64,000 bases of DNA, taken from Thermoanaerobaculia bacterium (GTDB lineage Bacteria; Acidobacteriota; Thermoanaerobaculia; Multivoradales; J023). The notes under the pieces are model-generated. The model was not told where the DNA came from, did no database searches, and saw only the letters and a list, made by a program, of their open reading frames with translations. Location of the stretch: assembly GCA_030431255.1 (NCBI GenBank), contig JAUIJL010000006.1:1-64000 (forward strand), read 5' to 3'. Below, one piece after another: positions 7,458-23,117 of the stretch (position 1 is its first letter; the number at the start of each line of letters is the position of its first letter). Position numbers and translations under genes: made by a program.

Positions 7458-9293
7458 TTATTGGCGTTGCAGCCACATGGAGAAGGTCAACAGCATCGAG
7501 ACCGTATAACCCGTGGCGGGCAGCGGCTCGGCGTGGAAAGCATCCAGAAGACCGCGGATCGCCGCCGGCTCGACCCAGTCGTGAACAGGAAGGCCCGGTT
7601 GGGTCAGGTGGCGCTCGAGCGCAGCTCGGCCTTCATCGTGCAGGAATTGCACCTCCCAATTGCGCTCCAAGACCCGCTCCCGTCGGAGGACTCGCCAGGC
7701 CTTCTTCAACGCTCGCTTCGGCAGTAGCCAGGTGTTGAAATGCTGCCAAGTGTAGAGCGACGCATCGTAGACCTGCCAAGGCACCCGGGCGAGATGCGGT
7801 GCCAGGCATTTAATGGCATCGATTTCCAATCGCCGATTCGCCACGAATTCCGTCGGCACCTCGGTAAAAAAATCCACCAAGCGAGGATCGTAGAAGGGCA
7901 GACGCGGCTTGGACCCGAGCTGATAGGCCCGCAGGCCGGCGACGGTCCAGCGAAACGACCAATGGTCGGTTTTGAAGGCCTTGATCCGGAAGTCCGGGTC
8001 TTGGATCGACCCATATCGCGACAGCTCTCCCCCGACCCAATTGGCGAGCGCTTCAGACGGCTCCTCTCCTAGCCGGGATTTACAGATGTGGTCCACCAGC
8101 CAGCGACTGCCTCGCTTTTGCAGGCGGGAAAGGGTATGCCGAGTCACCTCTTCCTCGATGTCTTGGCCACCTCGCCATCCCATGTCGTCCAGCCAGACAT
8201 CCCCCCAATGGGCTGCCACCACAGAGCCCCCGTGCCGTCTCAAGAGAGGCGAAATCTGGGATTGTCGGGTCTGGGTGACATCCTGGAATCCCTCGACGGC
8301 GGCCATCACCTCATGGTGTCGACGAAAAAGATAGGGCTCGATCTCTATCGATTCAAAGGGCATGCTTCGACGATCCGCCAAGCGTCGGGCGATTCGGGTC
8401 TCCACCGAGCGGGGGCCGTAACCGTAGGAGTAGCACCACCTTCCTTCGCGCTGCCCGTCGAGGGCCGCTAGGGTCAACCGGGAGTCCAGCCCGCCGGAAA
8501 GGGGGATGGCCAAGGTGTCATCACATTGATCGATCTCGCTCATGATCTGCCGAATGAGCGCGCAGAAGGCTTCTAGGGTGTCGTCGTAGGAGCGCCCGGA
8601 CCGAGGCTGGTGGGACCAATCCCAATAACGCCTCTGGCGCCACGCCCGCGAGTCGAGCTCATAGACGTATCTTCTCGCCGGCTGAAAGATCCTCACATCT
8701 TCATATGGGGTGTGGTCCCCGGGAAAGAACCCGAAGCTGAAGAATCCCGCCAAACCGAAGAGATCAAGGTGTCGACGGGAGCCGACCGATACACCGGCCA
8801 TGCAGCTGCCGAAGCCCGCGGGACCGTAGTAAGCGTGCATCGCCCCTAAACGATCGGTGAGCACTTCGATTTGCCCGTTCTCGCTTCGGCGGATCAGGAT
8901 AAAGCGCTCGCCGAGGACCGCGGGATCCGCGTCCGACCAAGCGACCTTCTCGATCTCCTCGCGAGTCGCCCGGATCTCGCCAAAGAGCCAAACCCGACCA
9001 CGAGCCCCTTCAAGCTGGTGCCAGGCACTTCCGACCCAGTGCCAGGCATCTCCACCTGCGTTTCCGTCTTCGCCGTCTGGATCTAATGGGGTTCCCTTCC
9101 GGATGCCGTCGATCGGGCGCTCGCTCGAGCCCGAGCAAGCTTGGGTAAAGAGCGCGTGATCCTCGCTGCGGAAGACCTCGGTCCACGGCAGACTTGTGCG
9201 GCCGGCGGCCGGCGGCCGGCCGTCCAAGGCGAAATACCAATCCCCGACCTCGACTTGAGCCACCTCTCCTCCGCCGGCTCTGCGCTTATCCAC
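7458..9293 (-). CDS. Asparagine-synthase-like amidotransferase of a glycan cluster
   Basis: 611 residues if begun at GTG 9293, which overlaps the end of the upstream GT2 gene by 8 bases; a second GTG at 9263 follows GGAGGAGAG and is a good alternative. The ATP-pyrophosphatase signature is clear: LAIPLSGGLDSRLTLAAL, then a typical C-terminal helical domain. The N-terminal half resembles the Ntn glutaminase fold (LTDRLGAMHAYYGP) but does not begin with Met-Cys, so the nucleophilic cysteine of glutamine-dependent enzymes is absent. This suggests use of free ammonia, or a non-amidotransferase ligase such as a cyclase. Neighbouring glycosyltransferases suggest amidation of a sugar acid or glycan-linked amino acid. 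Three copies of a TGCCTGGCAC element lie within the gene. Confidence 0.78.
   Translation of the reverse strand: MDKRRAGGGEVAQVEVGDWYFALDGRPPAAGRTSLPWTEVFRSEDHALFTQACSGSSERPIDGIRKGTPLDPDGEDGNAGGDAWHWVGSAWHQLEGARGRVWLFGEIRATREEIEKVAWSDADPAVLGERFILIRRSENGQIEVLTDRLGAMHAYYGPAGFGSCMAGVSVGSRRHLDLFGLAGFFSFGFFPGDHTPYEDVRIFQPARRYVYELDSRAWRQRRYWDWSHQPRSGRSYDDTLEAFCALIRQIMSEIDQCDDTLAIPLSGGLDSRLTLAALDGQREGRWCYSYGYGPRSVETRIARRLADRRSMPFESIEIEPYLFRRHHEVMAAVEGFQDVTQTRQSQISPLLRRHGGSVVAAHWGDVWLDDMGWRGGQDIEEEVTRHTLSRLQKRGSRWLVDHICKSRLGEEPSEALANWVGGELSRYGSIQDPDFRIKAFKTDHWSFRWTVAGLRAYQLGSKPRLPFYDPRLVDFFTEVPTEFVANRRLEIDAIKCLAPHLARVPWQVYDASLYTWQHFNTWLLPKRALKKAWRVLRRERVLERNWEVQFLHDEGRAALERHLTQPGLPVHDWVEPAAIRGLLDAFHAEPLPATGYTVSMLLTFSMWLQRQ
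9018..9058. repeat. Pair of GTGCCTGGCAC-type palindromes inside a gene
   Basis: Two copies of the short palindrome (gtgccaggcac and gtgccaggcat) occur about 30 bases apart and encode DAWHWVGSAWHQ in the N-terminal part of the asparagine-synthase-like protein. A third related copy lies at 7800-7810 in the same gene, and related tgccaggc/tgcctggc sequences occur in the YD/Rhs gene and near 5070. They look like a dispersed short repeat tolerated in coding frames. Confidence 0.6.
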
Positions 9294-10227
9294 GAAGGGT
9301 CCGCGCAACCTTCTTGCCGCCCCGCGCCAACAGGTGCTGCAACTGGGCCCAAGCCGCCGGGTTCGAGGGTTGGTAGGCGAGGGCGCTGCCGGCGAGCCGG
9401 AGACCTTCTCGCCCCCCGAAGAATCGAGCTTCCCGGACCCTCTGGTTGGACTCGGCGCGTCGATGCAGAGCCCTATGCTCCTTGAGGCCTTGAGCTTCCA
9501 GCCAAGCTGCGATCTTCGCCAACACCTTGCGCTGGTCTCGGAAGGCATGGGCTTTCTCGGCCATCAGGCTCGGATGATCGCCCGCCCGAAGCTGCAACAC
9601 CAACGGCTCGGCGATGCATCGGAAACGGGCGCCGGAGGCCGCCATTTGCATGAACGCAAACCAATCTTCGCCAACCCTCAGATCTTCCGGGTAGGGGAGG
9701 CGGCGCAGCCACTCGGTTTTCACCATCAGGGTGGTATTCGGAATTTTGTTGCTTTCCAGGTAGAGCAGACGAAACACGTCCTGGGGATCGTCGGGAAGCT
9801 CTCCACGCGACAGCACCCCCGGCCAAATCGCCAGCCGCTCCCCAAATCCGTCCACCCACTGGACCGGAGAGCAGACCAAATCCACTTCCGGATCGCTGTT
9901 GAAAACGGCCACCTGCCGCTCCAACCGGTGGGGCAGGCATAGGTCGTCATCGTCGAGGATGGCGCAGAGATCGGCGCGGGCTTCGGCTACCGCTTTATTG
10001 CGGGCTCCGGCCGGACCTTGGTTTTGCTCACACCGCAGACCACGAACGCGTTCATCCGATGCCATCAGCATGGAAATCAGCCTGCCGGTTTCCGGACCTG
10101 AGGCATCGTCGACAATCAGCAGCTCAAAGTCGGCAAAGCTCTGTGACAAAAGCGAGGCCACTGCCCGCTCCAGCAGTCGGGGACGATGATGGGTCGCCAC
10201 AATCACGGAAACGCGCGGTGCTGACAT
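9286..10227 (-). CDS. Family 2 glycosyltransferase
   Basis: 313 residues from ATG 10227, which lies 5 bases past the stop of the upstream MFS gene. An in-frame start at 10257 would overlap that gene and add ten unconserved residues. GT-A features are present: RVSVIVATHHRPRLLERAV at the N-terminus, LLIVDDASG for nucleotide binding, the NQGPAGARNKAV block and the metal-binding ILDDDDLCLP. The later GEDWFAFMQMA segment matches the acceptor/catalytic base region (ED) of inverting GT2 enzymes. Cytosolic or membrane-associated, acting in the same glycan pathway as the adjacent GT4 and amidotransferase genes. Donor and acceptor are not predictable. Confidence 0.87.
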   Translation of the reverse strand: MSAPRVSVIVATHHRPRLLERAVASLLSQSFADFELLIVDDASGPETGRLISMLMASDERVRGLRCEQNQGPAGARNKAVAEARADLCAILDDDDLCLPHRLERQVAVFNSDPEVDLVCSPVQWVDGFGERLAIWPGVLSRGELPDDPQDVFRLLYLESNKIPNTTLMVKTEWLRRLPYPEDLRVGEDWFAFMQMAASGARFRCIAEPLVLQLRAGDHPSLMAEKAHAFRDQRKVLAKIAAWLEAQGLKEHRALHRRAESNQRVREARFFGGREGLRLAGSALAYQPSNPAAWAQLQHLLARGGKKVARTLRG

Positions 10228-10232
10228 GGTCC

Positions 10233-11450
10233 CTAAGCTCGCTCTTGGGACGCCCACCGCAGGATCAGAGCGCCGGCCACCAACACCAATAGGATTTCTA
10301 TGGCCCCACTGACCACGAAGGCGACCCCGAAGCCAGCCTGCTCAAACACCCACACACCTACCAACGGCCCGATGGCAAAACCCAGCGATCCGGCGAGGTT
10401 GAAGCCCCCCATGGCGCTGCCACGGGTTTCGGAATCACTGAGCTGACCGGTCAGCAGAATCGCGGGCGGAAACATGACCGAAGCGAGCACACCCAAAGCC
10501 GCCATGACCCACCAGAGCTCGTAAAGGTCCGAATATCCGACCCAACACAGCACGATGCCGTAAACGAGGGAGCCGATCAGCAAAGGTTTGTAGGGTCCTA
10601 CCCTTTCAGCCAAACGTCCGGTGAAGTATTGAAGGAAGGCGAAGGGCAAGAGAAAGAAGGCCAGGTACTGACCCCGAGTCGCGGGATCGTCGACTCCCAG
10701 AGAGGCCAAGTACTGGGGAAAGAGAATGACGAAGAAACCCACCGTGTAGCGATCTGCAAACTGAAACGCAAAGGGAAACAGCAGCCTGGGGCTGTCGATG
10801 AGGGTCCGGAATATGGATCTCAATCCGACTTGCTTGCGCAGCGAGCCGCTTCGCGGCAGCAAGAACGTGCCGGCTGCCAAAAGCAGAAACAACCATCCAG
10901 CGACCTGGAGAGGCGCGCGTATGCCCAGCTCTCGAGTAATCAGACCGCCGAACGGAGCACCCATGGAAATGCCGAAGATGAGACCGGCTCCCATGATGCC
11001 CATATATCGGCCCCGACGCTGATCGTCCGGCTGGTCCAACACCATGGCCATCAGCGTCGACCAGCCCATCACGGAGAAAGCGCCCTGAACAAAGCGGATC
11101 GTCAGCAGCATGCTCACGGACTGCACGTGTAGATAGCTGAGATAAAGCACGCCACTGGCTAAGAAACCGATGAAAATCAACGGTCGACGCTTGGCCCAAC
11201 GATCACTGAGCACACCCCAAAGGGGGGCGAAAAGGATGTAGGACACCATCTCGAGCGAGAAAAAAAGGCTGGTGTCGGATGTCGTCCCGCCCAAATCGTC
11301 GACGATCAGCTCTTTGAGGCCGGCGACGATCAGAGTCAGATTGAACATCGCCACCATCAAGAATAGGGACGGCAGCACCACGGTCCGCCAAGGGCCGATC
11401 ATGTGCGGGTCCTGTTCCGCGTCGGACAACGATGTCTGGCTTATTTCCAT
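10233..11450 (-). CDS. Major facilitator superfamily transporter
   Basis: 405 residues from ATG 11450 (AGAGGAGAGC immediately upstream); a TTG at 11465 would add five residues. About twelve hydrophobic segments are visible, with the MFS loop 2-3 motif GVLSDRWAKRRP and a related motif in the second half (GRLAERVGPYKP). The protein is an inner-membrane drug/H+ antiporter-like carrier. It is the first gene of the glycan island and is separated by only 5 bases from the GT2 gene, so co-transcription is likely. The substrate is unknown; export of a precursor or an unrelated efflux function are both possible. Confidence 0.87.
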   Translation of the reverse strand: MEISQTSLSDAEQDPHMIGPWRTVVLPSLFLMVAMFNLTLIVAGLKELIVDDLGGTTSDTSLFFSLEMVSYILFAPLWGVLSDRWAKRRPLIFIGFLASGVLYLSYLHVQSVSMLLTIRFVQGAFSVMGWSTLMAMVLDQPDDQRRGRYMGIMGAGLIFGISMGAPFGGLITRELGIRAPLQVAGWLFLLLAAGTFLLPRSGSLRKQVGLRSIFRTLIDSPRLLFPFAFQFADRYTVGFFVILFPQYLASLGVDDPATRGQYLAFFLLPFAFLQYFTGRLAERVGPYKPLLIGSLVYGIVLCWVGYSDLYELWWVMAALGVLASVMFPPAILLTGQLSDSETRGSAMGGFNLAGSLGFAIGPLVGVWVFEQAGFGVAFVVSGAIEILLVLVAGALILRWASQERA

Positions 11451-11529
11451 GCTCTCCTCTGCCAAAGAGGGCTAATGGTGGCAGAGCAGCCCGAGCTGAG
11501 CAAGGTCCGGGACAAGAATTCGGCAGGTC

Positions 11530-11593: not shown

Positions 11594-13039
11594 TCAGAGG
11601 TATCCCAAGGAGTACAGCACCGCACCAAAAGCGTTCAGCCGTCCTCCGGAATAGATCCAATCCCACAGATATGGCCGGTAGATCGTGCCGTAGAGCAAAT
11701 CCAGCCGAGTGTTCTTGTGGCTGAATTTGTTGCTGCCGGCGTGCATGTCGCGGATCAGAGCCACGGTTCCGGCCACCAGGGGAGTGGAGAACGACGTACC
11801 CCAGCCCACGGCATAGGCGCCACCCGGGTAGAGCGTGACCAACTCTTTTCCGGGAGCCGTCAAATCTCCGGTGGGCACCCCGTAATTGGTGAAGTCGGTG
11901 AGGTAATCCGCCCAATTCGTCGACGCGACGCCCACCGCAGCGGTGAAAGACGCGGGAAATGCGTAGGTGTGCAAGCCGTTGTTGCCGGTGGCAGCCACCG
12001 GAATCACCCCGTTTTCACGGGCGTACTCGAGGGCCAAACCCAGCTCCAGGGAGTATTCCTCCATGCTGAAGCTCATGTTGATCACGTCGGCACCGTTGTT
12101 CACGGCGTAGTAGATCGCGCTGATGATGTCGTAGGAGTTGCCGGTGCCATGGGCATCGAAGGCCACCAACGGCATGATCTGAGCCGCCGGGGCGACCATG
12201 CGAATCAAACCCGCGGTCATCGTGCCATGACCGAAGTAGGGCAGCATTTCTTGCAGATCGGCTTCGGCTTCAACGTCTTCTTGGCCGAGAACCACCACAC
12301 CCGTGGTCAGGCCGACCGGATGTCGGTTGCCGTTGAGCACCGCCGTGCCGGCCAGCTCCATGATGTTGAGGGTCCGTGTGCTCAAGTCGGCTGTGGGCAT
12401 GCCGGAGCCGATGGTGTAGATGCTCTGGTCCACGAAATTGTAGCCGGGAACGATTGCGTCCCGAAGATGGGGGTGCTCGGTGTCGATTTCGGTATCGATC
12501 ACCGCCACCACGATGCCTTCACCGCAGCCGCCGTAGGTTTGTGCCTCGAGCAGCTGGATCATCTGGGTCGCCGCTTGGCCGGTGAAACCGCTCCAGGCCC
12601 CCGGCATGTAGGCATTGAGACAGGGAGTATCGAGGGTGCCCGAGAAGTCCAGCTCTTCGTCGAGCTCGCCGGCTTCATTACCGCTCAGGGTCGACGCGGG
12701 CAGGCTGGCGAGCACCGCGGCTTCGGCGTCTTTGGCCGCGCCGTCGAGCATCATCTGTTGGAGGAGGGCGGAGCTGGACATCTTCTGGGAGGCTCCGAGC
12801 TCGACCAGGAAGACATCTCCGGACGGAGAGGAGAGTTTTTCAACCACCTGAACGCCGTATCGGGCCGTAAGCCGGTCGATATCGGCGGTACGCAGAAGCA
12901 GCTGCTCTTTGCCGGCGACCTTGTCGTTGCCGAGCTTGTCGGCACCGGTGCGCTCACCGAGATCTCTGGCGAAGCCGGTAGCCGCCGACATCAACAAGGC
13001 GGCGATTATGATTCCTTGGCTGATCTTCAGGCGTGTCAT
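11594..13039 (-). CDS. Secreted S8 family serine peptidase (subtilase)
   Basis: 481 residues with an N-terminal signal peptide (ISQGIIIAALLMSAATGFA), a propeptide-like region to about residue 150 and a subtilisin domain to about 460. The catalytic triad is complete: D182 in VAVIDTEID, H271 in YFGHGTMTAGL and S416 in GTSFSTPLVAG, with the oxyanion Asn at 353 in ATGNNG. The residue after the catalytic Asp-Thr is Glu instead of the common Gly. GAGGAG lies 9 bases before the ATG. It follows the degenerate anti-sigma-like gene by 40 bases and ends at a strong terminator, so those two genes form a unit beside the sigma/CHAT operon. It probably acts outside the cytoplasm; its target is unknown. Confidence 0.9.
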   Translation of the reverse strand: MTRLKISQGIIIAALLMSAATGFARDLGERTGADKLGNDKVAGKEQLLLRTADIDRLTARYGVQVVEKLSSPSGDVFLVELGASQKMSSSALLQQMMLDGAAKDAEAAVLASLPASTLSGNEAGELDEELDFSGTLDTPCLNAYMPGAWSGFTGQAATQMIQLLEAQTYGGCGEGIVVAVIDTEIDTEHPHLRDAIVPGYNFVDQSIYTIGSGMPTADLSTRTLNIMELAGTAVLNGNRHPVGLTTGVVVLGQEDVEAEADLQEMLPYFGHGTMTAGLIRMVAPAAQIMPLVAFDAHGTGNSYDIISAIYYAVNNGADVINMSFSMEEYSLELGLALEYARENGVIPVAATGNNGLHTYAFPASFTAAVGVASTNWADYLTDFTNYGVPTGDLTAPGKELVTLYPGGAYAVGWGTSFSTPLVAGTVALIRDMHAGSNKFSHKNTRLDLLYGTIYRPYLWDWIYSGGRLNAFGAVLYSLGYL

Positions 13040-13079: not shown

Positions 13080-13700
13080 TCAGTTGATCTCCCCGAGCGA
13101 AACCTCAAGGCATTTTTCATCATCGACCAAAAAGAGGAGGGCAATCGATTCAGCGCTGAGTCCTTCGGCCTGGAACTCGCCGAGCTCACCTGTCTTCGAC
13201 CGGGCAATAATCTCTTCTTCCGCCATGGCCAAGATCGGTACATCAGCGACTGGCTGAACGTCTTTGCCGTCCTTTATCAGCTGACCGACAACCACCGAGC
13301 CCTTTTTGTCCGTTTCAAGACGCAGGTCGATTTGAAACCCTTGGCTTTGGAAGACCATCTGGCGATCCGAAGAGCGCAAGTCGCGGGTTCCGGCGAAGGC
13401 CGGAGCCATGCGGCTGTCGAAGGTGAGCGCCATCGTGAGACGCTCAAGCAGGGAGGATTCTCGGGTTTCTTGCCTGCGCACACTTCCCAGAGCTTTGGCG
13501 CAGCGCACTGCGTAGCCGGGCACTTGGAGGTTGCGGTCGATCTCAGCTAAACGAGCAACTCGGCGTAAGGCGGAGACCTCTTTTTGGGTGGACGACGATG
13601 CTCCTGGGCCCTGCAGATATTCTTCCATCTGCCGCGCCGCCTCGGGTTCCATCAGCCCCCGGACAAAATCGGCCACTTGGGTGATGTCTTGTTTGGTCAT
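13080..13700 (-). CDS. Degenerate anti-sigma-like protein with C-terminal beta domain
   Basis: 206 residues from ATG 13700 (CAGGAG 9 bases upstream; a start at 13727 would add nine poor residues). The N-terminal helices ADFVRGLMEPEAARQMEEYL and the following ALRRVARLA read like a zf-HC2/ZAS anti-sigma domain, but the expected His-x3-Cys-x2-Cys zinc ligands are replaced by YLQGPGASSST. No membrane segment is present. The C-terminal half (FQIDLRLE, VVVGQLI, VPILAMAEEE, TGELGEFQAEG) resembles a carboxypeptidase-regulatory-like beta fold. It lies between the CHAT gene and the subtilase gene. I infer a partner or substrate of the sigma/CHAT module; this is not shown by the sequence. Confidence 0.7.
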   Translation of the reverse strand: MTKQDITQVADFVRGLMEPEAARQMEEYLQGPGASSSTQKEVSALRRVARLAEIDRNLQVPGYAVRCAKALGSVRRQETRESSLLERLTMALTFDSRMAPAFAGTRDLRSSDRQMVFQSQGFQIDLRLETDKKGSVVVGQLIKDGKDVQPVADVPILAMAEEEIIARSKTGELGEFQAEGLSAESIALLFLVDDEKCLEVSLGEIN

Positions 13701-13999
13701 CGCACCGGACTCCTGAGAACAGATCATGGTTTATTCATCGCATTTATAGGGTGGTCTGCGATGAAAAAAAATATACCCTCGCGAAAAATTTCTCGGATTT
13801 TTGGCCTTTGTTTGCGTCTTCCACGGTAGGCCGACGGCAGAATCGACCTTCATCATTTACCATTTTAGCCCCGCCACCTTACGTTTTACCTTAACTCAAG
13901 CTCCAACAGACGGCTCGTCTTTAAACAGCTCACCTGAAAACACTGTCAGGCCCGCAGATGGGCGGATCTTCCGAGCACAGCGCCCAGCCGGCGGCAGGC
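13701..13999. promoter_or_regulatory. AT-rich intergenic region, probable promoter of the anti-sigma-like/subtilase unit
   Basis: About 300 bases without a credible gene, markedly richer in A/T than the neighbours. On the minus strand a TATAAA hexamer at about 13744-13749 has a T-run 17 bases upstream, a weak sigma-70-like pair that would drive the 13700 gene. No conserved ECF promoter could be identified by eye. Confidence 0.4.
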
Positions 14000-16870
14000 T
14001 CAGCCCGGGTCTCCGATCATCACGAATGGGGCCCAGAAGTAGGGCTGAGGGTACTCAGCGCGATGCTCCAGCATGGTCTGCTGCAGCGCTTTCGCCCGAG
14101 GCACGCCGGCCACGAGATGCCGATAGAAACGGCGCATGAAGGCGGCGGTGCTCGCATCGTGCACGTCCCACAAGGTGACGAGCACGGATTTCGCTCCGGC
14201 GTACAGTGCTCCGCGGGTCAAACCCAAGAGCTCGTCAGCGCCCAGAACCGCATTGAGACCTGTTCCACAACCCGACAGTACCACCATCTCAGTGGAAAGA
14301 CGCAAATTGTAGAGATCAAATAGACTCAACCTGCTTGTGCCCAGCTGAATTGCAGAAAACATGGGATTGTCCCGCCGAAACAGACCGTGGGTGGCGATGT
14401 GCAAATAGCGGCAGCCGTTACCCAGCTCACGAAGGGCATCCTCACTAGCAGACTCGCCTTCGAGCAATTGGGCTCCGGGAAGCACCTCGGCGACGGCTCG
14501 CACCTCGTCGAGGATATGTGGCGCAAGCTCGTCCGCTACGCCCATGACCAAGGACCTGTTTTCCAGATCCTCATGCTTGATGGCACAGAGATGAAAGACA
14601 CTTCCACTCGGCGTGTAGGAGATGGAATAGCGCTCGACTAGGGAGGTCCCGTCGGCGTCGACCAAGGCGTGAAACGGCACATAGTGGAGAAAGCCGTGCG
14701 GAGCGATGATCAAGTGTCCGCGTCGCAGCAGATGCTCGATCGGAGCCACCAGGTGTCGATAGAGCGCCCGTAAATGGGCCGTGGTCGATCGTTGAATAAG
14801 CGCGGCAACCCCGGGCGAGCTTCGGTCGTGGACGCCGCGGGAGAGCTGGAATTGCAGCAGGCGGTGCTTCTCCCTGGCGGCGCTCTCCGAGCCCAAGTCC
14901 ATCAATCGCGAACCGGTGCCATCGATCACCGCGACTAGAAGGCGGCCTCGGGCGATGAAATACTCGATCAGCTGAGCGTCTTCGGGGATCGAGGCCCTTA
15001 CGACGTCCGGATCGAGCATCGCAGCCGACTGAATGGAACCGAGCTCGAGATCGCTCGCCGTCAGCTCTCTTTGAGCCTGCAAGAGGGCATCCTCTTTCTC
15101 CCGCACGGCCGCTTGTAAGCGCTGAATGGTCGCCTGCACCTCCGGGCCTTCGCGCATGGCTTGAACGTCCAACTGGCGATAGAACCAATTCAGCTCCTCG
15201 CGCAACCCCCGCGTGAGATCCGCCAGCTCGTTGGCCTCGGCACTCTTAGCCGGTAGGGCGTGAGATCCAAACGCGAGCAGATCGGCCAGGCTTCGGGACT
15301 TCGACTTCTCGATATAGCGCAGACAGACTTCTTCCTTCCCGCCGCCGACACCCCTGGCGAAGTTCAGGAAAACCAAGCTCTCGTAGAGAGTTTGTTTGGC
15401 GCCGAAGAAAGAGATCTTGAGGTCCTCCCCTTGCAGCCGTCCATGCATTTGCTCCAGCCATCGGTCGCATCTCTCGTAGGCCTCGAGAGCTTTCCCGATC
15501 GAGCCCAGCTCCTCTTCCACCCGGCCGAGAACCTGGAAGACCTGGAAGTCCAAGGCTGGGAGCTCCAGGCCTTTGAGGCGGTCGAGGGCGGCGAGACAAA
15601 CTTCCCGAGCCGCGGGCACTGAGCCAGAACGGAGAAGTATCGTGGCCAACAGCACCTCGCACATGGTCGCTCTGGAATCGAGGCCCGAGGTGTCCATGGA
15701 TTGGAGGGCTGTGCGGGAGTAGGTTTCGGCTTCCGACAAACGGCCGGCCTGGGCCAGAACGACCGCACGGTAGAAGTCGATCAACGCCGGCCAGAGCCGG
15801 TTCTGCTCCGAGACGAAGCTCCGCCGAGCCCGACGCAACATCACCAAAGCTTGCTCCACATCCCCGAGGCGGCTAGCCGCGAGCGCGTTGTTGGTCAGAG
15901 AAATCGCCGCCTCATAGGGCATCTTGAGCCGGTCGAAGCCATCGAACGACGACTTCGCCAGCCGCTCCGCATCCTCGATGAGGTTGAGCTCGAGATAGAT
16001 CTCAGACAAGCCCAGCTCGCAGAGCGCATGCTGATGTTTATCGTTGAAGCTGTCCGCGGAGCGGCGCGCGGTTTGGTAAAGCTTGATCGCGCGGTTGTAT
16101 TCGGTCCGCAGGTAGTAAATCAGCGCCAGGTGGTAATCGACCACCATTTCGAGATGGGGCAACCCCTGCTCCACACAATAGGCCTTGCTTTGGCTGTAGC
16201 TCTGGAGCGCTTGATCCGGGAGATGGAGATCGAGATAGCAAGTCGCCACGTTGTTCAGACAGAGGATGGCGTCCTCCGGGCGCTCCAAACCCACGAACAC
16301 CTCATAAGCTGCGTAGTAGTGCTCCTGGGCTTCCTGCCATCGGTCTTGTCGCTGTAATACGTTGGCGTAGTTGTTGTCGAGGATGGCCAGCCGCAAGCGA
16401 TCGTCCATTTTCTCGAAGGCTTCCCGGGCCCGAGACTCCCAGCGGAAGGCCTTCTCGTACTCACCCAGATAGGCGAGGTTCTGCAACGCGCTGGAACGGG
16501 TAATGGCCGCCGACAAAGGATCTTCCAGCTCGGCGAAGGCCGCCAAGGCCTCCTCATATCTCTCTTGGGCTCGGTCGTAGTCGCCCAGGCAATGCAAGGC
16601 ATTGGCCGAGGCTCGGGCCGCCAGCGCTCGACAGGAGGGGGCGTCGAGCCGGGCAGCGAGAAACCGAGCCGTATTGGCCAGCTCGAAGGCTCTTTCACTA
16701 TCGGCGCGGGCCTGACGGGCAACCTCGACACAAAGAATTCGGACCTGGTCCTCATTCACCAGGTCCGGTCTCCGATCGAAGTATTGACGGCGCTCGACCT
16801 CACCGACCAGATGAGCCATCTGGTCCAATAGCTCTTCGGGATCGGTGGTGGGTATTTCGATCGCCTTCAT
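14000..16870 (-). CDS. TPR-CHAT protease (caspase-like)
   Basis: 956 residues. Residues about 50-480 are tandem TPR helices (ALNCLGDYDRAQERYEEAL-type units), about 540-620 a charged coiled coil (AVREKEDALLQAQRELTA), and about 640-956 a CHAT domain. The caspase-type dyad is intact: H828 in HIATHG and C868 in VLSGCGTG, with the downstream GLTRGALYAGAKSVL and FWAPFVMIGD segments typical of CHAT. No signal peptide or membrane segment, so cytosolic. Its ATG overlaps the ECF sigma stop (ATGA at 16867-16870), indicating coupled translation. Family knowledge: CHAT domains are cysteine endopeptidases, and a TPR-CHAT enzyme in type III-E CRISPR systems controls a sigma-factor inhibitor. The target here is unknown. 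Confidence 0.9.
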   Translation of the reverse strand: MKAIEIPTTDPEELLDQMAHLVGEVERRQYFDRRPDLVNEDQVRILCVEVARQARADSERAFELANTARFLAARLDAPSCRALAARASANALHCLGDYDRAQERYEEALAAFAELEDPLSAAITRSSALQNLAYLGEYEKAFRWESRAREAFEKMDDRLRLAILDNNYANVLQRQDRWQEAQEHYYAAYEVFVGLERPEDAILCLNNVATCYLDLHLPDQALQSYSQSKAYCVEQGLPHLEMVVDYHLALIYYLRTEYNRAIKLYQTARRSADSFNDKHQHALCELGLSEIYLELNLIEDAERLAKSSFDGFDRLKMPYEAAISLTNNALAASRLGDVEQALVMLRRARRSFVSEQNRLWPALIDFYRAVVLAQAGRLSEAETYSRTALQSMDTSGLDSRATMCEVLLATILLRSGSVPAAREVCLAALDRLKGLELPALDFQVFQVLGRVEEELGSIGKALEAYERCDRWLEQMHGRLQGEDLKISFFGAKQTLYESLVFLNFARGVGGGKEEVCLRYIEKSKSRSLADLLAFGSHALPAKSAEANELADLTRGLREELNWFYRQLDVQAMREGPEVQATIQRLQAAVREKEDALLQAQRELTASDLELGSIQSAAMLDPDVVRASIPEDAQLIEYFIARGRLLVAVIDGTGSRLMDLGSESAAREKHRLLQFQLSRGVHDRSSPGVAALIQRSTTAHLRALYRHLVAPIEHLLRRGHLIIAPHGFLHYVPFHALVDADGTSLVERYSISYTPSGSVFHLCAIKHEDLENRSLVMGVADELAPHILDEVRAVAEVLPGAQLLEGESASEDALRELGNGCRYLHIATHGLFRRDNPMFSAIQLGTSRLSLFDLYNLRLSTEMVVLSGCGTGLNAVLGADELLGLTRGALYAGAKSVLVTLWDVHDASTAAFMRRFYRHLVAGVPRAKALQQTMLEHRAEYPQPYFWAPFVMIGDPG

Positions 16871-17451
16871 TCGAGACCGAGCTCCTCCAACTGTTTCTGA
16901 AGCTTCTTCAGGCAGCGCCCGCGGATGAATCCGATCGAGCCCACGGCGATGCCCAATCGTTCGGCCACCTCTTTGTAGGGCAGCGGTGGCTGATGAAAGA
17001 AGAGCAAGTGCACCATCTCACGACATCGCTCCGGCAAGCCGTAAATGGCCTCTCGAATCAGCTGATCCTGCTCTAAGTCCTCGCTGAACGTAGGGTCGTA
17101 GCCCGTTTTTTCCTCCAGCGTTTCGGGTTCCTCGCCCGTCAGCTCCCTATCCGCGATCTTCCGCTTCTTATTTTGCCAGTGGTAGCAGGTGTTTCGCACT
17201 ACCGAAATCAGCCAGGGTTTGACCGCGCTCTGGTTTCGCAGCTTCTCCAGATCGTTGTGAACCTCGAGCCAGACGGATTGAAAAAGATCGGCACCGTCGT
17301 CCTGGGATACGCCGTATCTCATGATGACGGTGTAGACCAGATTCTTATATTTGTCGACCAGGGCTCCCCACGCCGCCTCGGAGCCCTGAAGGCAGAGCGT
17401 CACCAAGCGTTGATCTTCCCACCCGGGATTCGGGGAACTACTATCGGACAT
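16867..17451 (-). CDS. ECF-type RNA polymerase sigma factor
   Basis: 194 residues with the two-domain ECF layout. Sigma-2 is at about 25-95 (AWGALVDKYKNLVYTVIMRY, DADDLFQ-like GADLFQSVWLEV, KPWLISVVRNTCYHW), a short acidic linker follows, and sigma-4 is at about 130-190 (LPERCREMVHLLFFHQ, YKEVAERLGIAVGSIGFIRGRCLKKLQ). It begins 17 bases after the peptide-binding protein gene and overlaps the CHAT gene by four bases, so it is probably part of the importer operon. No conventional anti-sigma gene is adjacent; the degenerate one at 13080 is the only candidate. Presumably directs a regulon triggered by peptide uptake or CHAT activity, which is inference. Confidence 0.92.
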   Translation of the reverse strand: MSDSSSPNPGWEDQRLVTLCLQGSEAAWGALVDKYKNLVYTVIMRYGVSQDDGADLFQSVWLEVHNDLEKLRNQSAVKPWLISVVRNTCYHWQNKKRKIADRELTGEEPETLEEKTGYDPTFSEDLEQDQLIREAIYGLPERCREMVHLLFFHQPPLPYKEVAERLGIAVGSIGFIRGRCLKKLQKQLEELGLE

Positions 17452-17468: not shown

Positions 17469-19289
17469 CTAGGGCCGATCGGATCGCCGATAGAGGCGTT
17501 CAACATTCCAAAGGATCGTCGGCTCGAAGATAGTCGGCGAGAAATTTCCTATGCGCTTATTTGCCCCAACCAACACATTGGGCGCCACCAGCGTCACCAC
17601 CGGCTGATTCTCGAAAACCAAGCGTTGCACCTCCCCATACAGCTCTTTTCTTTTGGCGAAATCCAACTCCGACTTCTGCAGCTCCATCAGCTCGTCGATT
17701 CGCCGCTCCCATTCCGTGGTCGGACAATCCACTCCTAGATGCCAGAGATGATTGCTGCCCGACGAATGCCAAACATTGAGATCCGAGCTCGGGTCGACTC
17801 CTCCCCGCCCTAAACCCAATAAGGCGATTTCATAGTCAAAGCTGTTTGTCACGCGGTCCAGGAGCGCACCGAACTCAAGCGATACCACTTGCACCTCCAT
17901 CCCCAGCTTGCTGAGATCTTCTTGAATCAAAGTCGCGGTCTGCACCCGCCTGGGGTTGGAAGAGTTGGTCGCGATCGACAGCTTCACCTCGGCGCCGCCG
18001 GAATCCAAGAGGCGCCCCTTTTCACTCCAGCGAAAGCCCGCTCTAGCGAGGTGCTCCTTTGCCTGAGTCAAGGATGTCTCGGGCGGCTCGATGTCCACAA
18101 ACCAGCGGCTCTTTCCCGGCGAAACATGGGTTCCCAGGGAGGTCGCCTTGCCGTTGTAAACGAGATCGACAATGCCTTGACGATCCACCGCGTGGCTAAT
18201 GGCTTTGCGGAAACCGAGGCTGCGAAACCAACTTTGTTTGGCGATTAGCTCTGAACGGGATTCTGTGCCGAGATCATTAAGATTGAAAAAGAGAAACTCG
18301 TAGGCTGCCCCGGCACCGAGATCGCGCATTTGCAAACCACGTTCTTCGGCCACGACCTGGAGGCGCTGAAAACCATCTACCGGCACATTGGAAAGCACAT
18401 CGACCTCCCCCGCTTCGAAACGCAACAAGCTCGACTGCATATCCGTCAGCAAGAGCACAACAATCTCGTCCAGATAGGGGAGAGCCCTATCCTGGTCATC
18501 GCGTTGAAAGTAATGGGGGTTGCGTTCGAGAACGATCCGCTCACCCGGACGGTAGGAGGCCAAACGGAAAGGTCCCAACCCGGCCAGCTCTGACGGCGAC
18601 GTTTCGGTTCCCCAAGCGGAGGCTAGCTCGCCCCGCTCGAAATCGTCTCTCAACAAGTGCTCGGGCAGGATGTATAGGCTCTCAAACAACATTCCCGGAT
18701 CGGCGACCGGAGAGGGTAGGCGGACCTGCACAGTGTGGCTGTCGATGGCGGTGACGGAAATCGGCTCATCGTCGACCATCAGCGTTTGAAGCTGGGGGGA
18801 GCCCACCCGCTCGTCGAGAATGGCCTCGATCGTGAAAAGCACGTCATCGGCATCGAAGGGCTCGCCGTCCGAGAACTTGAGGTCGCGGGGAAGATCGATC
18901 CGGTACAGCGGAAAATCCTCGCCATCGGTCGGGACTGCGGTCCAGGACACCGCCAATGACGGACGGATCTCTTGGCTCATCGGGTCGAGCGCCATCAAAC
19001 CGCGATGCGTCAGACTCAGTAATATGAGAGTGGCTTGAGAGACCCCGGTCGCTGGGTTAAAAGTCCTCGGCTCAGAGGTCAGCGCCACCACCAGACGTCC
19101 TCCGACCTCTGGTTCCTCATATGTCTCGGTAGCGCCGGGCGACGAAGAAGCGGCAGCTACCTTGGAGTCGGCCGACGGCGCTTCCGGTGAAGGGGAGCAG
19201 CCGAACAAACAGATCCACGCGACCGAGAGCAAGCAGCCAACCCGAGCCGACCGAGCAGCCATCCGAAAGCAGTTGTCGGAGTCCTTCAT
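17469..19289 (-). CDS. Peptide ABC transporter substrate-binding lipoprotein
   Basis: 606 residues from ATG 19289 (AAAGG 7 bases upstream). A start at 19361 would add a 24-residue leader before the signal and overlap the permease gene. Lipobox SVAWICLFGC, then a Ser/Pro/Ala-rich linker and a family 5 solute-binding domain: GRLVVALTSEPRTFNPATG, YRIDLPRDLKFSDGEPFDADD, FRKAISHAVDRQGIVDLVYNG and a C-terminal EVQRLVFENQPVVTLVA. Located at the outer face of the inner membrane, or the periplasm, where it captures oligopeptides or similar ligands for the adjacent permeases. It sits 17 bases before the ECF sigma gene in the same direction. Confidence 0.9.
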   Translation of the reverse strand: MKDSDNCFRMAARSARVGCLLSVAWICLFGCSPSPEAPSADSKVAAASSSPGATETYEEPEVGGRLVVALTSEPRTFNPATGVSQATLILLSLTHRGLMALDPMSQEIRPSLAVSWTAVPTDGEDFPLYRIDLPRDLKFSDGEPFDADDVLFTIEAILDERVGSPQLQTLMVDDEPISVTAIDSHTVQVRLPSPVADPGMLFESLYILPEHLLRDDFERGELASAWGTETSPSELAGLGPFRLASYRPGERIVLERNPHYFQRDDQDRALPYLDEIVVLLLTDMQSSLLRFEAGEVDVLSNVPVDGFQRLQVVAEERGLQMRDLGAGAAYEFLFFNLNDLGTESRSELIAKQSWFRSLGFRKAISHAVDRQGIVDLVYNGKATSLGTHVSPGKSRWFVDIEPPETSLTQAKEHLARAGFRWSEKGRLLDSGGAEVKLSIATNSSNPRRVQTATLIQEDLSKLGMEVQVVSLEFGALLDRVTNSFDYEIALLGLGRGGVDPSSDLNVWHSSGSNHLWHLGVDCPTTEWERRIDELMELQKSELDFAKRKELYGEVQRLVFENQPVVTLVAPNVLVGANKRIGNFSPTIFEPTILWNVERLYRRSDRP

Positions 19290-19357
19290 CTTTGGACCTT
19301 TAAAATGGCCGACGCCCCAAGGGTGAAGGCCCTCGGGTGTAGGCATAAGACGAGTGA

Positions 19358-20374
19358 TCAAACATCACGGTGCTGCTGCAAGGCTTCCGCCAACAGATGA
19401 TAGCTTAGGATCGCAAGACCCAAGGCAACCGCCGGCCAGAACATCCAAACCCTGGTCATCGCCCCATGGGCCTCCGTCAGCACCGAAATCAAGCTGCCCA
19501 AGCTGGGAAACGGCTCCTGCACCCCCAAACCGAAGAACGACAGCGTCACCTCGGCCATCACGCATTTAGGAACGAGAAGCGCCCATTGGGTCAACAGAGT
19601 ATCCCGAGTCTGGGGCAGCAGGTGCTTGAAAAGCAAGTGAGCTTCCGATGCCCCGAAGCCCCGAGCGGCTTGAACGTAGTCTTGCTCTCGAGCTGTTTTC
19701 AGAACGCCTCGTACCAATCTTGCCGGAACCGCCCAGCCGAGCGTGCCGACCAACGCGATCGTTAGCACGAACACAGGCACCGGGTCCATACTTAGAGGCA
19801 AAAAGGCCCTTACGCCGATCAACAAATAGAGCCACGGCAGGGAAATCGTCAATTCCACCATGCGCATCAAAAACGCGTCGACCCAGCCACCCCAGGTCAC
19901 GCACAGGGTGCCTGCGATCAAACCCAGCACAACGGCCAGAGTGCCCGCCAGAGCACCTGCGAAGAGTGACAATCGCGCTCCGTAGAGGATTCTGGAAAAC
20001 ATATCGCGACCGTAGCGGTCCGTACCCAGCAAATGGATGCCGGTGGGAGAGCTGGTTCCGAACAACCGATATTTGAGAACCATTGGACCCATTTGTCTCG
20101 GTTCCGAGGGCACCCAAAAACGGATGGGATGCCGCTCGTTCGTAGTGTCGATGAATTCTCTCGGGTTGCGCGGATCCCGCTGAAGGGCATACACGAATGG
20201 ACGCCAATGGAAACGCCCTTCGGCATCGATCCATCGAGGTGGAGTGGGCGGCGCAAACGAAAGGGTACGCACCTGCCGAGCGAAATCATGGGGAGCCACC
20301 AGCTCGGCGGCGAGCACCACGAGGTGGATCGCCAGAATCCACCAGAGCCATTTCCGGGCCACCTTAGTCCCCAA
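19358..20374 (-). CDS. Oligopeptide ABC transporter permease, DppC/OppC type
   Basis: 338 residues with an N-terminal membrane segment (WLWWILAIHLVVLAAEL), a periplasmic loop ending GTDRYGRDMFSRILYGARLSL (characteristic of OppC-type permeases), then five hydrophobic segments and the EAA loop QAARGFGASEAHLLFKHLLP that contacts the ATPase. The start is TTG 20374, three bases past the stop of the partner permease gene, with GGAG 8 bases upstream; GTG 20362 is an alternative. The periplasmic loop between residues about 30 and 115 is longer than usual. Confidence 0.88.
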   Translation of the reverse strand: MGTKVARKWLWWILAIHLVVLAAELVAPHDFARQVRTLSFAPPTPPRWIDAEGRFHWRPFVYALQRDPRNPREFIDTTNERHPIRFWVPSEPRQMGPMVLKYRLFGTSSPTGIHLLGTDRYGRDMFSRILYGARLSLFAGALAGTLAVVLGLIAGTLCVTWGGWVDAFLMRMVELTISLPWLYLLIGVRAFLPLSMDPVPVFVLTIALVGTLGWAVPARLVRGVLKTAREQDYVQAARGFGASEAHLLFKHLLPQTRDTLLTQWALLVPKCVMAEVTLSFFGLGVQEPFPSLGSLISVLTEAHGAMTRVWMFWPAVALGLAILSYHLLAEALQQHRDV

Positions 20375-20377
20375 ACC

Positions 20378-21334
20378 TCAGTCTCCAGACCTCGGATCGA
20401 TCAGCACCAGGAGCCCATCGGCGATCAGATTGCCCACCCATAGAAATGCACAAACCCCGAGGATGCCTGCCAGCAGCACGTGAAGGTCTTGATTGGTCAT
20501 TGATTCGAGCACCAGGGGGCCGAGCCCTGGCCATCCCATGGCTCCTTCGATGACCAGGGAGCCGGAGAGCAAGCCGCCGAAGCTGATTCCAAAGAGGGTG
20601 ATCAATGGGTTCGCGGCGGCCGGCAAAACATAGGCGAGCATCAAGCGCCGGCCGGAGATTCCATGGCCGCGAGCCGCACGCACGAACGGCGCATCCAGAG
20701 CTTCGAGCACCGAGGTCCGAACGTGGCGCACCAAAACCGGAAGGCTCGTGAGCGCCAGCACCGTTACCGGAATCACCAGATGCTCGATGCGATCGATGAG
20801 TCGCGCCCCCAATGATAGGGATGCGTAATCCAGGGAAGTGGCTCCGCCTAGGGGTAACCGAGTGTTGACAGCCACCAGGATGCCGAGCAACGCCAGCAGA
20901 AGCTCCGGAATTGCCAACAGCGCCGCCACCGCGATCAAGGTGGATCGATCCAGCCACCCGCCGGCCCGATACGCGCCGGCGATGCCGAGGACGAGGGCAA
21001 TGATCCAAGCCAACAACATAGAGGCTCCGGCCAGCATCAAGGTGTGGGCGGCTCGCGGCAGAAAAAGGTCCACGACCGGTCGACGATAGGCGATAGAGAA
21101 ACCGCCTTCTCCTCGCGCGACGGAGCTCGCCCACCGGAGATATCGAATATGTAGGGGTTGCTCCAGCCCATATTGAAGCCGGAGGGTTTCGATCAGCTCC
21201 TCGCTCATTCGCGGGTCGAGGACCGCGCCGGTGAAGAAATCCCCCGGGGCGAGCTCGGCGAAAACGAACACCAGCATCGACAACACCACCAACAACAGCG
21301 CACCCTGGGCCAGCCGGCCCACCAGCCGACTCAT
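20378..21334 (-). CDS. Oligopeptide ABC transporter permease, DppB/OppB type
   Basis: 318 residues. The N-terminal helix (GALLLVVLSMLVFVFAELAPGDF) and the following LRLQYGLEQPLHIRYLRWASS are typical of OppB permeases. Further hydrophobic segments and the EAA loop VRAARGHGISGRRLMLAYVLPAA follow. Its ATG overlaps the stop of the upstream ATPase gene (ATGA at 21331-21334). A long alternative frame across the same region (20364-21356) lacks membrane character and is a shadow. Confidence 0.9.
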   Translation of the reverse strand: MSRLVGRLAQGALLLVVLSMLVFVFAELAPGDFFTGAVLDPRMSEELIETLRLQYGLEQPLHIRYLRWASSVARGEGGFSIAYRRPVVDLFLPRAAHTLMLAGASMLLAWIIALVLGIAGAYRAGGWLDRSTLIAVAALLAIPELLLALLGILVAVNTRLPLGGATSLDYASLSLGARLIDRIEHLVIPVTVLALTSLPVLVRHVRTSVLEALDAPFVRAARGHGISGRRLMLAYVLPAAANPLITLFGISFGGLLSGSLVIEGAMGWPGLGPLVLESMTNQDLHVLLAGILGVCAFLWVGNLIADGLLVLIDPRSGD

Positions 21335-22089
21335 GAGGTGCCGCCGGTGGATGCATCCGGAGCGCTTCTCTCGTCGACCACTCGACCTTGGGACAACACC
21401 AAGCTTCGATCGGCCAGCTGCTCGGCCAGGGCAGAGTTGTGGGTGATCAGCACACAGGTCAGCCCACGGCTTTCCACCAAGCCCAACACCAGGTTGGCCA
21501 GCTTCGCTTGCAGGCTCAGGTCAAGGCCGGAGAAAGTTTCATCGAGCAACAACGCGTCCGGCTCGGTGACCAGCGCCCGCGCCAAGACCAGCCGTTGTAA
21601 TTGTCCGCCGGACAAGCTTCGTGCCCGCATGGGCAAGACCTTGGGGTCCAGCTCCACCTCCGCCAACAGCTGAGCCCAATCTAGAGCGCGTTGCGGGGAA
21701 GCGCGTTGCTGCCAGGCCTGCTGCGGCTCCCTCAAGACTTGCTCGGTGGTGAAGCGAGGGCTCACCGCCCGGGCCGGATCTTGGAACACCAGCTGCACCC
21801 GGCGCCGCAGCCCACGCATCGCCAAGACGTCCTCCCAAGGTACCGCCTCGCCCTGGAAGCCCACCTCACCGGAATCGGGCCTTTCCAAAAACGCCAAGCA
21901 GCGGGCGAGGGTGGACTTGCCGCTGCCCGAGGGGCCGACCAACGCCAGAATCTCCCCGGATCGCACTTCCAGACTCATGCCGTCGAGGGCTTGTATTTGC
22001 TCACTTCCGCTGAGTTTTCCGCCCCGACGGTAGCGCATGGAAATATTCGCCGCCGACAAGACCGCGCGATCCGCCGGCCCACCGCTCAT
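21331..22089 (-). CDS. Peptide ABC transporter ATPase, DppF/OppF type
   Basis: 252 residues from ATG 22089, which overlaps the preceding ATPase stop as ATGA; a start at 22128 would overlap by 43 bases. Walker A GPSGSGKST, Q-loop VFQDPARAVSPRF, signature LSGGQLQR, Walker B ALLLDET (Thr in place of the usual Pro after DE) and H-loop ITHNSALA are present. The C-terminal oligopeptide-family extension is short. It forms the ATPase heterodimer with the product of the preceding gene. Confidence 0.9.
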   Translation of the reverse strand: MSGGPADRAVLSAANISMRYRRGGKLSGSEQIQALDGMSLEVRSGEILALVGPSGSGKSTLARCLAFLERPDSGEVGFQGEAVPWEDVLAMRGLRRRVQLVFQDPARAVSPRFTTEQVLREPQQAWQQRASPQRALDWAQLLAEVELDPKVLPMRARSLSGGQLQRLVLARALVTEPDALLLDETFSGLDLSLQAKLANLVLGLVESRGLTCVLITHNSALAEQLADRSLVLSQGRVVDERSAPDASTGGTS

Positions 22090-23117
22090 GGGCCACTCCC
22101 TAAGCGCGTCGAGCCGGCACGAACACACCAGGTGCGACCCTGGCCCATTGGAACCGGCGACGGTTTCTCACCGCAAGATTCCGTGACGACAGGGCATCTG
22201 TCGACAAAACGGCAGCCGCTCGGCAGCTCGCTCGCCGGCGGCGCCATACCCGGGATCACCGTTAGGCGCCTTCGGTCCAGGGGCTCCGAACGCAAAGCTT
22301 TGCGCCTCGGAAGGCAATCCAACAACAACTTGGTGTAAGGGTGATTGGGCTCTGCCAACAAAGATTCGGTGGGCCCTTCTTCCATCCAACGGCCCGCGTA
22401 CATGACATAGATCCGATCGGTGATCTCCGCCAATACCCCCGGATCGTGGCTGATCCACAACAGGGCCATCTGCCGTTCACGGCTCAAGCGCCTCACCAGC
22501 TCCAACACCTGAATCTCTGTTTTGCGGTCCAACGCGGTGGTCGGCTCGTCCGCAACGAGCAGCGACGGCTCACAGGCTAGGGCCTGAGCCAACACGATGC
22601 GCTGACGCTGGCCGCCGCTCAGCTGGTGGGGAAAGGCCTGGAAGATATCCGACTCGAGATCGAGCTCGTCCAGAAGCTCCATCACCTTACGTCGACACGA
22701 ACGAGCGCTCCAAGGACGATGGCTCAGCAGCACGTCGGCGACCTGCAAACCGACTCTGCGCATAGGGTGCAACGCCAGGGATGGCTGTTGGAACACCATG
22801 CCGATGGTGTCGCCCCGAAGGCGCCGCCAAAAACGCTCGTCAGCGGCGGCAGGAACCGGTCGCCCGAGGATTTCGAGCTCCATGGAGCAGCGGGCTTCCG
22901 ACGGCAAGAGGCCAGTGACCGCTAAAGCCAGGCTGGTTTTGCCGCTACCCGACTCCCCGAGAACGCCGACCGCTTGCCCCCGGGCGATTTCACAACCCAG
23001 CCCATCGACCACAACGGCGTCGGATTCAGCCGTTCTACTCGGATATCTGACCTCCAGTCGATCAAGCCTCAGGACCGGAGATTTGGGATCGGGATTTGAA
23101 TCGATGGGTTTGGTCAA
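22086..23117 (-). CDS. Peptide ABC transporter ATPase, DppD/OppD type
   Basis: 343 residues from a probable TTG start at 23117 with GGAAGAGG upstream; no ATG is available before the Walker A motif. Walker A GESGSGKTS, Q-loop FQQPSLALHP, signature LSGGQRQR, Walker B LLVADEPT, H-loop ISHDP, then the oligo/HPY extension (NHPYTKLLLDCLPR) and a Cys cluster (GCRFVDRCPVVTESC) typical of DppD and its iron-sulfur-associated relatives. First gene of the importer-sigma-CHAT run. The ferredoxin reductase gene ends only 61 bases upstream, so the transcript could begin further upstream. Confidence 0.9.
   Translation of the reverse strand: MTKPIDSNPDPKSPVLRLDRLEVRYPSRTAESDAVVVDGLGCEIARGQAVGVLGESGSGKTSLALAVTGLLPSEARCSMELEILGRPVPAAADERFWRRLRGDTIGMVFQQPSLALHPMRRVGLQVADVLLSHRPWSARSCRRKVMELLDELDLESDIFQAFPHQLSGGQRQRIVLAQALACEPSLLVADEPTTALDRKTEIQVLELVRRLSRERQMALLWISHDPGVLAEITDRIYVMYAGRWMEEGPTESLLAEPNHPYTKLLLDCLPRRKALRSEPLDRRRLTVIPGMAPPASELPSGCRFVDRCPVVTESCGEKPSPVPMGQGRTWCVRAGSTRLGSGP

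Follow-up and report, generated by a model that had tools for sequence, protein, structure and literature searches.

A probable zinc-less, soluble class I anti-sigma factor encoded beside a TPR-CHAT protease and an ECF sigma factor in a Thermoanaerobaculia bacterium

The gene at positions 13080-13700 (minus strand) of contig JAUIJL010000006.1, from the Thermoanaerobaculia bacterium of assembly GCA_030431255.1, most likely encodes a soluble off-switch for a sigma factor. Its product is very probably an anti-sigma factor, which would bind the ECF sigma factor encoded two genes upstream, and it lacks the zinc ligands that most of its relatives keep. The kinds of domain in it are already known; their combination and the zinc-less form are new. 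All coordinates below refer to the window, the whole stretch of DNA that was analysed (64,000 nucleotides, positions 1 to 64,000 of the contig).

The gene and its neighbours

The gene lies between those of a TPR-CHAT protease and an S8 subtilase, in a module that is entirely on the minus strand:

11594-13039, minus: S8 subtilase (Peptidase_S8 9.3e-35), hydrophobic N-terminus, presumably secreted, likely output gene
13080-13700, minus: zinc-less class I anti-sigma-like protein, predicted soluble, 206 aa (ORF, start choice, fold models)
13746-13773, minus: bipartite promoter-like motif TATTTTT-N-CCCTWW before the anti-sigma gene (motif search)
14000-16870, minus: TPR-CHAT cysteine protease, 956 aa, H828 and C868 conserved (Pfam CHAT 2.2e-64)
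16867-17451, minus: ECF sigma factor (TIGR02937 1.1e-28, Sigma70_r2 and r4)
17469-19361, minus: ABC solute-binding protein, family 5, peptide/nickel type (SBP_bac_5 3.4e-70)
19358-23117, minus: two permeases and two ATPases of an oligopeptide/dipeptide-type ABC transporter (BPD_transp_1 twice, ABC_tran twice)

The sigma gene overlaps the start of the TPR-CHAT gene by 4 bp. The family 5 binding protein, whose N-terminus by eye resembles a lipobox, is a conserved upstream neighbour of the module, and one of the two ABC ATPases carries the oligopeptide/dipeptide C-terminal region (oligo_HPY 5.3e-17); 17469-23117 thus forms a complete oligopeptide/dipeptide-type ABC transporter that is co-directional with the sigma/CHAT module.

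The minus-strand open frame extends over 13080-13727. From the sequence, the start at 13700, which the initial annotation of this DNA had implied, seems preferable to 13727, because its ATG has AGGAG 9 nt upstream (by eye), because most homologs share it, and because the promoter-like site at 13746-13773 lies upstream of it; this choice gives the 206 aa ORF. The product has no TM-like segment (maximum KD19 1.0), and 116 of 118 homologs likewise stay below 1.6.

An anti-sigma-like N-terminal domain

The AlphaFold2 model of residues 1-206 (pLDDT 90.9) has helices at 6-14, 19-30, 36-57 and 62-78 followed by beta strands over 86-204, and divides the protein as follows:

13461-13700, minus: four-helix anti-sigma (class I / ZAS-like) domain, residues 1-80 (AlphaFold2, Foldseek, VIA)
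13383-13391, minus: G104-T105-R106 in predicted loop 96-111, candidate scissile site (model and alignment)
13083-13445, minus: beta-sandwich, carboxypeptidase-regulatory-like (AlphaFold2, Pfam on relatives, fold search)

The N-domain was also modelled separately (pLDDT 89.0, four helices), because the beta domain filled the fold searches of the whole model. In a Foldseek search of a PDB library with the N-domain, ranks 1-3 were taken by the anti-sigmas RskA (4nqw) and RslA (3hug) with weak E-values of 0.5-0.8, and ChrR (2q1z) came at rank 8; the anti-sigma E-values overall, 0.5 to 1.5, are weak. The top rows of the VIA re-alignment were RslA with Z 6.5 (rmsd 2.9, 55 aligned), RskA with Z 5.7 (rmsd 10.9, 71 aligned) and RsiW with Z 5.0 (rmsd 5.4, 70 aligned), all in the range that the tool calls common. 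Searches of Pfam, NCBIfam and PADLOC with the window protein alone returned no usable match. The family profile run against PDB sequences reached RslA (E 0.067) and RsiW (E 0.1), both weakly, and zf-HC2 was matched in 4 of 61 aligned family members (Pfam, E up to 0.1; best 0.0051). The window model shows the class I (ASDI/ZAS) architecture of a three-helix bundle plus helix 4, and its gene lies near an ECF sigma gene, as is expected of this class. Because sequence and fold searches, each modest, return the same kind of protein, we accept with high confidence that the window protein is an anti-sigma factor. The initial annotation had read the N-terminal helices as ZAS/zf-HC2-like, and the fold ranks, the profile matches and the zf-HC2 hits in relatives all agree with it; the nearest PDB folds of the N-domain are anti-sigmas, not unrelated structures.

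The four-helix class I fold is shared with ChrR and RslA, which bind zinc, and with RseA and RskA, which do not. Unlike these four, the window protein carries a carboxypeptidase-regulatory-like C-terminal domain, has a TPR-CHAT neighbour and is predicted to be soluble. Covariation was computed in 94 sigma/anti-sigma pairs, with contact positions taken from PMC7406223. Helix 4 plus linker against known sigma2 contacts scored above random sets (0.018), though no longer once ten tests are corrected for; the other nine of the ten tests, helix 1/sigma4 included, were null, and the pairs with the highest ranks fell outside the known contacts. The helix 4/sigma2 signal is a hint only.

Loss of the zinc ligands

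The window residues aligned to the zinc ligands are Y28, S35 and T38, so that the H-x3-C-x2-C pattern of zinc-binding ZAS/zf-HC2 domains is absent, as had been noticed at the outset. How common is this among relatives? In a set of 118 distinct homologs (E up to 1e-10, deduplicated on the last 80 matched residues) the N-domain is present in 113, and 101 of these have H-x3/4-C-x2-C. Two others (L137, L151) have H-x5-C-x2-C, L080 has the cysteines only, and the ligands are fully lost in nine: the window protein, L003, L016, L017, L018, L019, L021, L072:7690 and L073. All nine losses fall within the window's order. Within its family the ligands are gone from 7 of the 7 N-domain copies found (two each in G000 and G002, one each in G003, G004 and G006), and the remaining two zinc-less copies belong to genomes of the same order (G060, G063).

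Uniform loss throughout a family is what decay with loss of sigma binding would leave behind, but the open frame, the confident four-helix model, the motif and the operon are all kept; moreover, according to PMC7406223, RseA and RskA function without the zinc motif, which is absent in ~44% of class I anti-sigmas and ~28% of soluble ones. A zinc-less copy is for this reason not strange in itself, and we regard decay as very improbable.

The initial annotation had further argued that an anti-sigma without zinc would need a different switch, for example the neighbouring CHAT protease. That part of it is not borne out, although its two domains and the ligand loss are: among the 101 homologs that retain the zinc motif, 87 are encoded no more than 5 kb from a module sigma gene of the same strand, and a TPR-CHAT gene usually accompanies them. 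Since zinc-keeping relatives share these neighbours, the CHAT linkage does not depend on whether zinc has been lost. That the neighbours stay the same where zinc is gone also argues that in this family the metal is more likely structural than a sensor. Zinc is reported as structural in RsiW (PMC7406223).

The C-terminal beta domain and its loop

The fold search of the whole model places the beta part in the common Ig/carboxypeptidase-regulatory-like fold, and the family profile matches a beta-domain protein, 4v4c, among PDB sequences (E 0.0024). CarboxypepD_reg (PF13620; Pfam, E up to 0.1) is found in 18 of 61 aligned members (best 9.1e-5) and not in the window protein itself. Fold and relatives together support the carboxypeptidase-regulatory-like character first suggested for the C-terminal half. 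R106, in the loop that links the helices to the sandwich, is conserved in all but one of 117 homologs (116). It is possibly the site at which CHAT cuts, a suggestion made from the alignment, with Arg specificity of CHAT a guess; the Arg may instead be structural, because homologs that have no N-domain keep it too.

Conservation of the module

A contig scan with the single window protein found no relative. The family profile found matches in 10 of 72 genomes of the window's order and, at E up to 0.001, in 41 of the 396 genomes sampled from the phylum, the weakest being short beta-domain matches that may be unrelated; the whole-genome searches covered the window's phylum, Acidobacteriota. A contig scan with a TPR-CHAT alignment was also made and the best 80 of 179 relatives kept, 79 of these 80 carrying titles of what we take to be Acidobacteriota groups. 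One locus (L170), titled Betaproteobacteria, carries a typical Acidobacteriota module and probably comes from a mislabelled genome.

The recurrent cluster order is peptide-ABC binding protein, ECF sigma, TPR-CHAT, window-type protein, subtilase. From 120 distinct TPR-CHAT loci, 80 were assessed and 40 set aside for short flanks. The sigma gene is present in 75 of the 80, and sigma plus a full-length homolog was called in 70; L079, a sigma locus whose homolog lies behind a run of N, raises the number of sigma loci with a full-length homolog to 71 of 75, versus 2 of 5 loci without sigma (Fisher p 0.004, not corrected for relatedness). The remaining sigma loci are L130 and L178, in which the homolog is absent from the stretch, L188, whose sole homolog is ~6.5 kb away on the opposite strand, and L190, with a partial homolog. 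Among loci without sigma, L096 and L099 have a full-length homolog with no sigma detected, L023 has a homolog without N-domain, and L167 and L181 have neither gene. The TPR-CHAT of L167 (6944-9874) has its catalytic His replaced by Glu. An apparent protease/anti-sigma fusion in L079 was rejected, its junction being the run of N.

Counted over 127 TPR-CHAT genes (duplicates and cut loci included), a subtilase lies downstream in 95 and a binding protein upstream in 76. The CHAT dyad is nearly invariant in the alignment (His828 in 117 of 118, L167 being the exception, and Cys868 in 118 of 118); frequent loss of the Cys, the result of a regular expression, was discarded since the pattern was too narrow.

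Five homologs consist of the beta domain only (L022:8834-9274, L023:8987-9490, L024:8027-8449, L025:563-1051 and L163:903-1385). In L022, a cut locus that had been set aside, the binding-protein gene directly adjoins TPR-CHAT, no sigma gene separating the two; a sigma-like ORF (E 5e-5) is found 3.9 kb further on. The copies in L024 and L025 lie close to contig ends in stretches where no TPR-CHAT and no sigma was found, and unassigned ORFs of similar appearance come after them; the copy in L163 lies on the opposite strand beside a complete module. The co-occurrence of TPR-CHAT and beta domain in L022 and L023, with no adjacent sigma and no N-domain, ties the beta domain to CHAT.

These loci bear on whether the anti-sigma might instead be released by a ligand that binds the beta domain, CHAT having other targets and merely sharing the operon. 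Such a release would suit a common carboxypeptidase-regulatory/Ig-like fold, and class I anti-sigma domains are, according to PMC7406223, generally thought to be joined to stimulus-perceiving domains. Against it stand the constancy of TPR-CHAT as a partner and the conservation of its catalytic residues; moreover, L022 and L023 pair TPR-CHAT with the beta domain where the N-domain is missing and no sigma lies beside TPR-CHAT. We consider ligand release unlikely.

In 24 of 117 cases the sigma and homolog genes are no more than 400 bp apart with no TPR-CHAT between them, and close adjacency is usual for sigma/anti-sigma pairs. This direct neighbourhood, the zf-HC2/ZAS motif in relatives and the fact that the nearest solved folds of the N-domain are inhibitors all speak against CHAT degrading or processing the sigma itself with the small protein as an adaptor or chaperone, and we think this quite improbable, even though proteolytic control without an anti-sigma is proposed for ECF54 in a review (PMC8999054).

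A promoter-like motif before the anti-sigma gene

No site like that at 13746-13773 is expected by chance in the window. Of 75 gaps that precede the anti-sigma gene, 40 contain the core TTTT-N15-CCCT, and shuffled gaps gave no dyad above 5 (ten mononucleotide shuffles) and none above 6 (twenty dinucleotide shuffles). The sites read CTATATTTTT(T)-N-CCCTTAT or CCCTATA. The motif is absent, even in a loose form, from 35 of 77 upstream regions; it was found in 0 of 8 loci in which no module sigma was found, and many sigma-bearing loci likewise have none.

TATTTTT-N12/16-CCCTWW has 45 sites in the 1.99 Mb of locus sequence retrieved, a total that counts duplicates, versus 0 in one mononucleotide-shuffled copy. 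Of these, 41 lie before the anti-sigma gene (not a count of independent genomes, because some loci were fetched twice: L016/L112, L017/L114, L019/L113), one lies before a second subtilase gene (L153) and 3 are elsewhere. Two of the last 3 are one place fetched twice (L019, L113). At L019:2107-2134 (minus) the motif stands ~120 nt before a metalloprotease-like ORF with HEWGH, a possible further sigma target, and at L194:1501-1529 (G143:C9:71091-71119) it stands ~530 bp past the TPR-CHAT 3' end, pointing back, with no clear gene behind it.

When a related pattern was run on nine module-bearing genomes, 6 of the genomes contained it, at 7 distinct sites in all, and 6 of these sites precede the anti-sigma gene; the reversed control gave 3 sites. 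The pattern was absent from the other 3 genomes, and several of the tested loci had helped to define the motif. A second match to the strict pattern in the window's own genome (G000:C19:40407) was put down to chance, since an ORF contains it and the reversed pattern, run as a control, likewise gave 2. In a scan of 297 genomes of the phylum with TATATTTTT-N12/16-CCCTTA, 6 genomes matched versus 19 reversed-control matches, and module-bearing genomes (e.g. G000, G004, G143, G249, G271 and G314) were unmatched with this TATATTTTT spelling. Outside its source loci that spelling is background; the scan covered this one spelling, which differs from the window's own (CCCTAT).

Proposed mechanism and relation to known systems

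How might the parts of this module work together? The four-helix N-domain would clamp the ECF sigma encoded two genes upstream, and the beta domain would be the part that the neighbouring TPR-CHAT protease recognises. The TPR part would sense a signal, upon which CHAT would cut the anti-sigma, possibly after the near-invariant R106 of the interdomain loop, and the freed sigma would transcribe from the promoter-like site before the anti-sigma gene, with the subtilase as output and new anti-sigma as shut-off. The position of the motif implies that a sigma using it would make its own inhibitor as well as the subtilase. We think this model, in which a soluble anti-sigma is cut by CHAT and the sigma then turns on subtilase and anti-sigma, probable as a whole; that the CHAT neighbour is the switch seems, taken by itself, reasonably likely. 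The signal may be an imported peptide, which is proposed because a peptide-type ABC transporter and a protease are linked here; it is the least supported step, and we offer it tentatively. The cluster layout, recurring in soil bacteria, suggests that a caspase-like protease cuts the window protein and thereby turns on a secreted protein-degrading enzyme. Because the promoter-like motif, the output gene and a candidate site of cleavage have been named, the mechanism can be tested directly.

The closest parallel is in type III-E CRISPR systems, in which Csx30 binds an ECF sigma through its N-part and is cut by the TPR-CHAT protease Csx29 (PMC10028731). A TPR-CHAT protein, a two-part protein with a sigma-binding N-part (predicted here) and an ECF sigma in one locus are shared with Csx29/Csx30/CASP-sigma, and the window CHAT domain is related by sequence to that of Csx29: the NCBIfam Csx29 model matches the window TPR-CHAT in its CHAT part only, at 3.2e-17 and 62.7 bits, below the 300-bit cut-off. 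Among PDB sequences the family profile of the small protein gave no Csx30 match at E up to 10. Unlike type III-E loci, the window has a peptide-type ABC transporter and a subtilase as neighbours, and in its own genome the search for RAMP (Cas7-type) proteins found nothing and that for Cas1 a single weak match, on a different contig. The module would be a counterpart, outside CRISPR, to craspase signalling. A broader reading, somewhat speculative but conceivable, is an Acidobacteriota-wide, CRISPR-independent module in which a soluble, caspase-like TPR-CHAT protease cuts a ZAS-type anti-sigma to free an ECF sigma, with a secreted subtilase as output and an imported peptide as signal, and of which the Csx29-Csx30-sigma arm would be a recruited relative.

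The ECF54 group, whose model member is from Geodermatophilus, is listed in the review with CHAT, subtilase and carboxypeptidase neighbours and described there as lacking an anti-sigma (PMC8999054). The window sigma is likewise near CHAT and subtilase genes, but has a candidate anti-sigma; if it belongs to ECF54, the neighbour called a carboxypeptidase could be the missing one. The window protein in this way supplies a candidate for CHAT/subtilase-linked ECF sigmas, which the review describes as without one. Among the literature matches listed, titles and abstract openings name no anti-sigma for CHAT-linked ECF modules in Acidobacteriota.

A second copy and adjacent genes

The window's own genome holds a second, split copy of the system (L003, G000:C49:500000-519000), in which sigma and anti-sigma are together, TPR-CHAT and the binding protein are 5.5 kb away and the subtilase is convergent. 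Beside the module, on the same strand of the window, 7458-11465 encodes an asparagine-synthase-like ORF (2.9e-7), a family 2 glycosyltransferase and an MFS transporter, which are possibly a small biosynthetic cluster.
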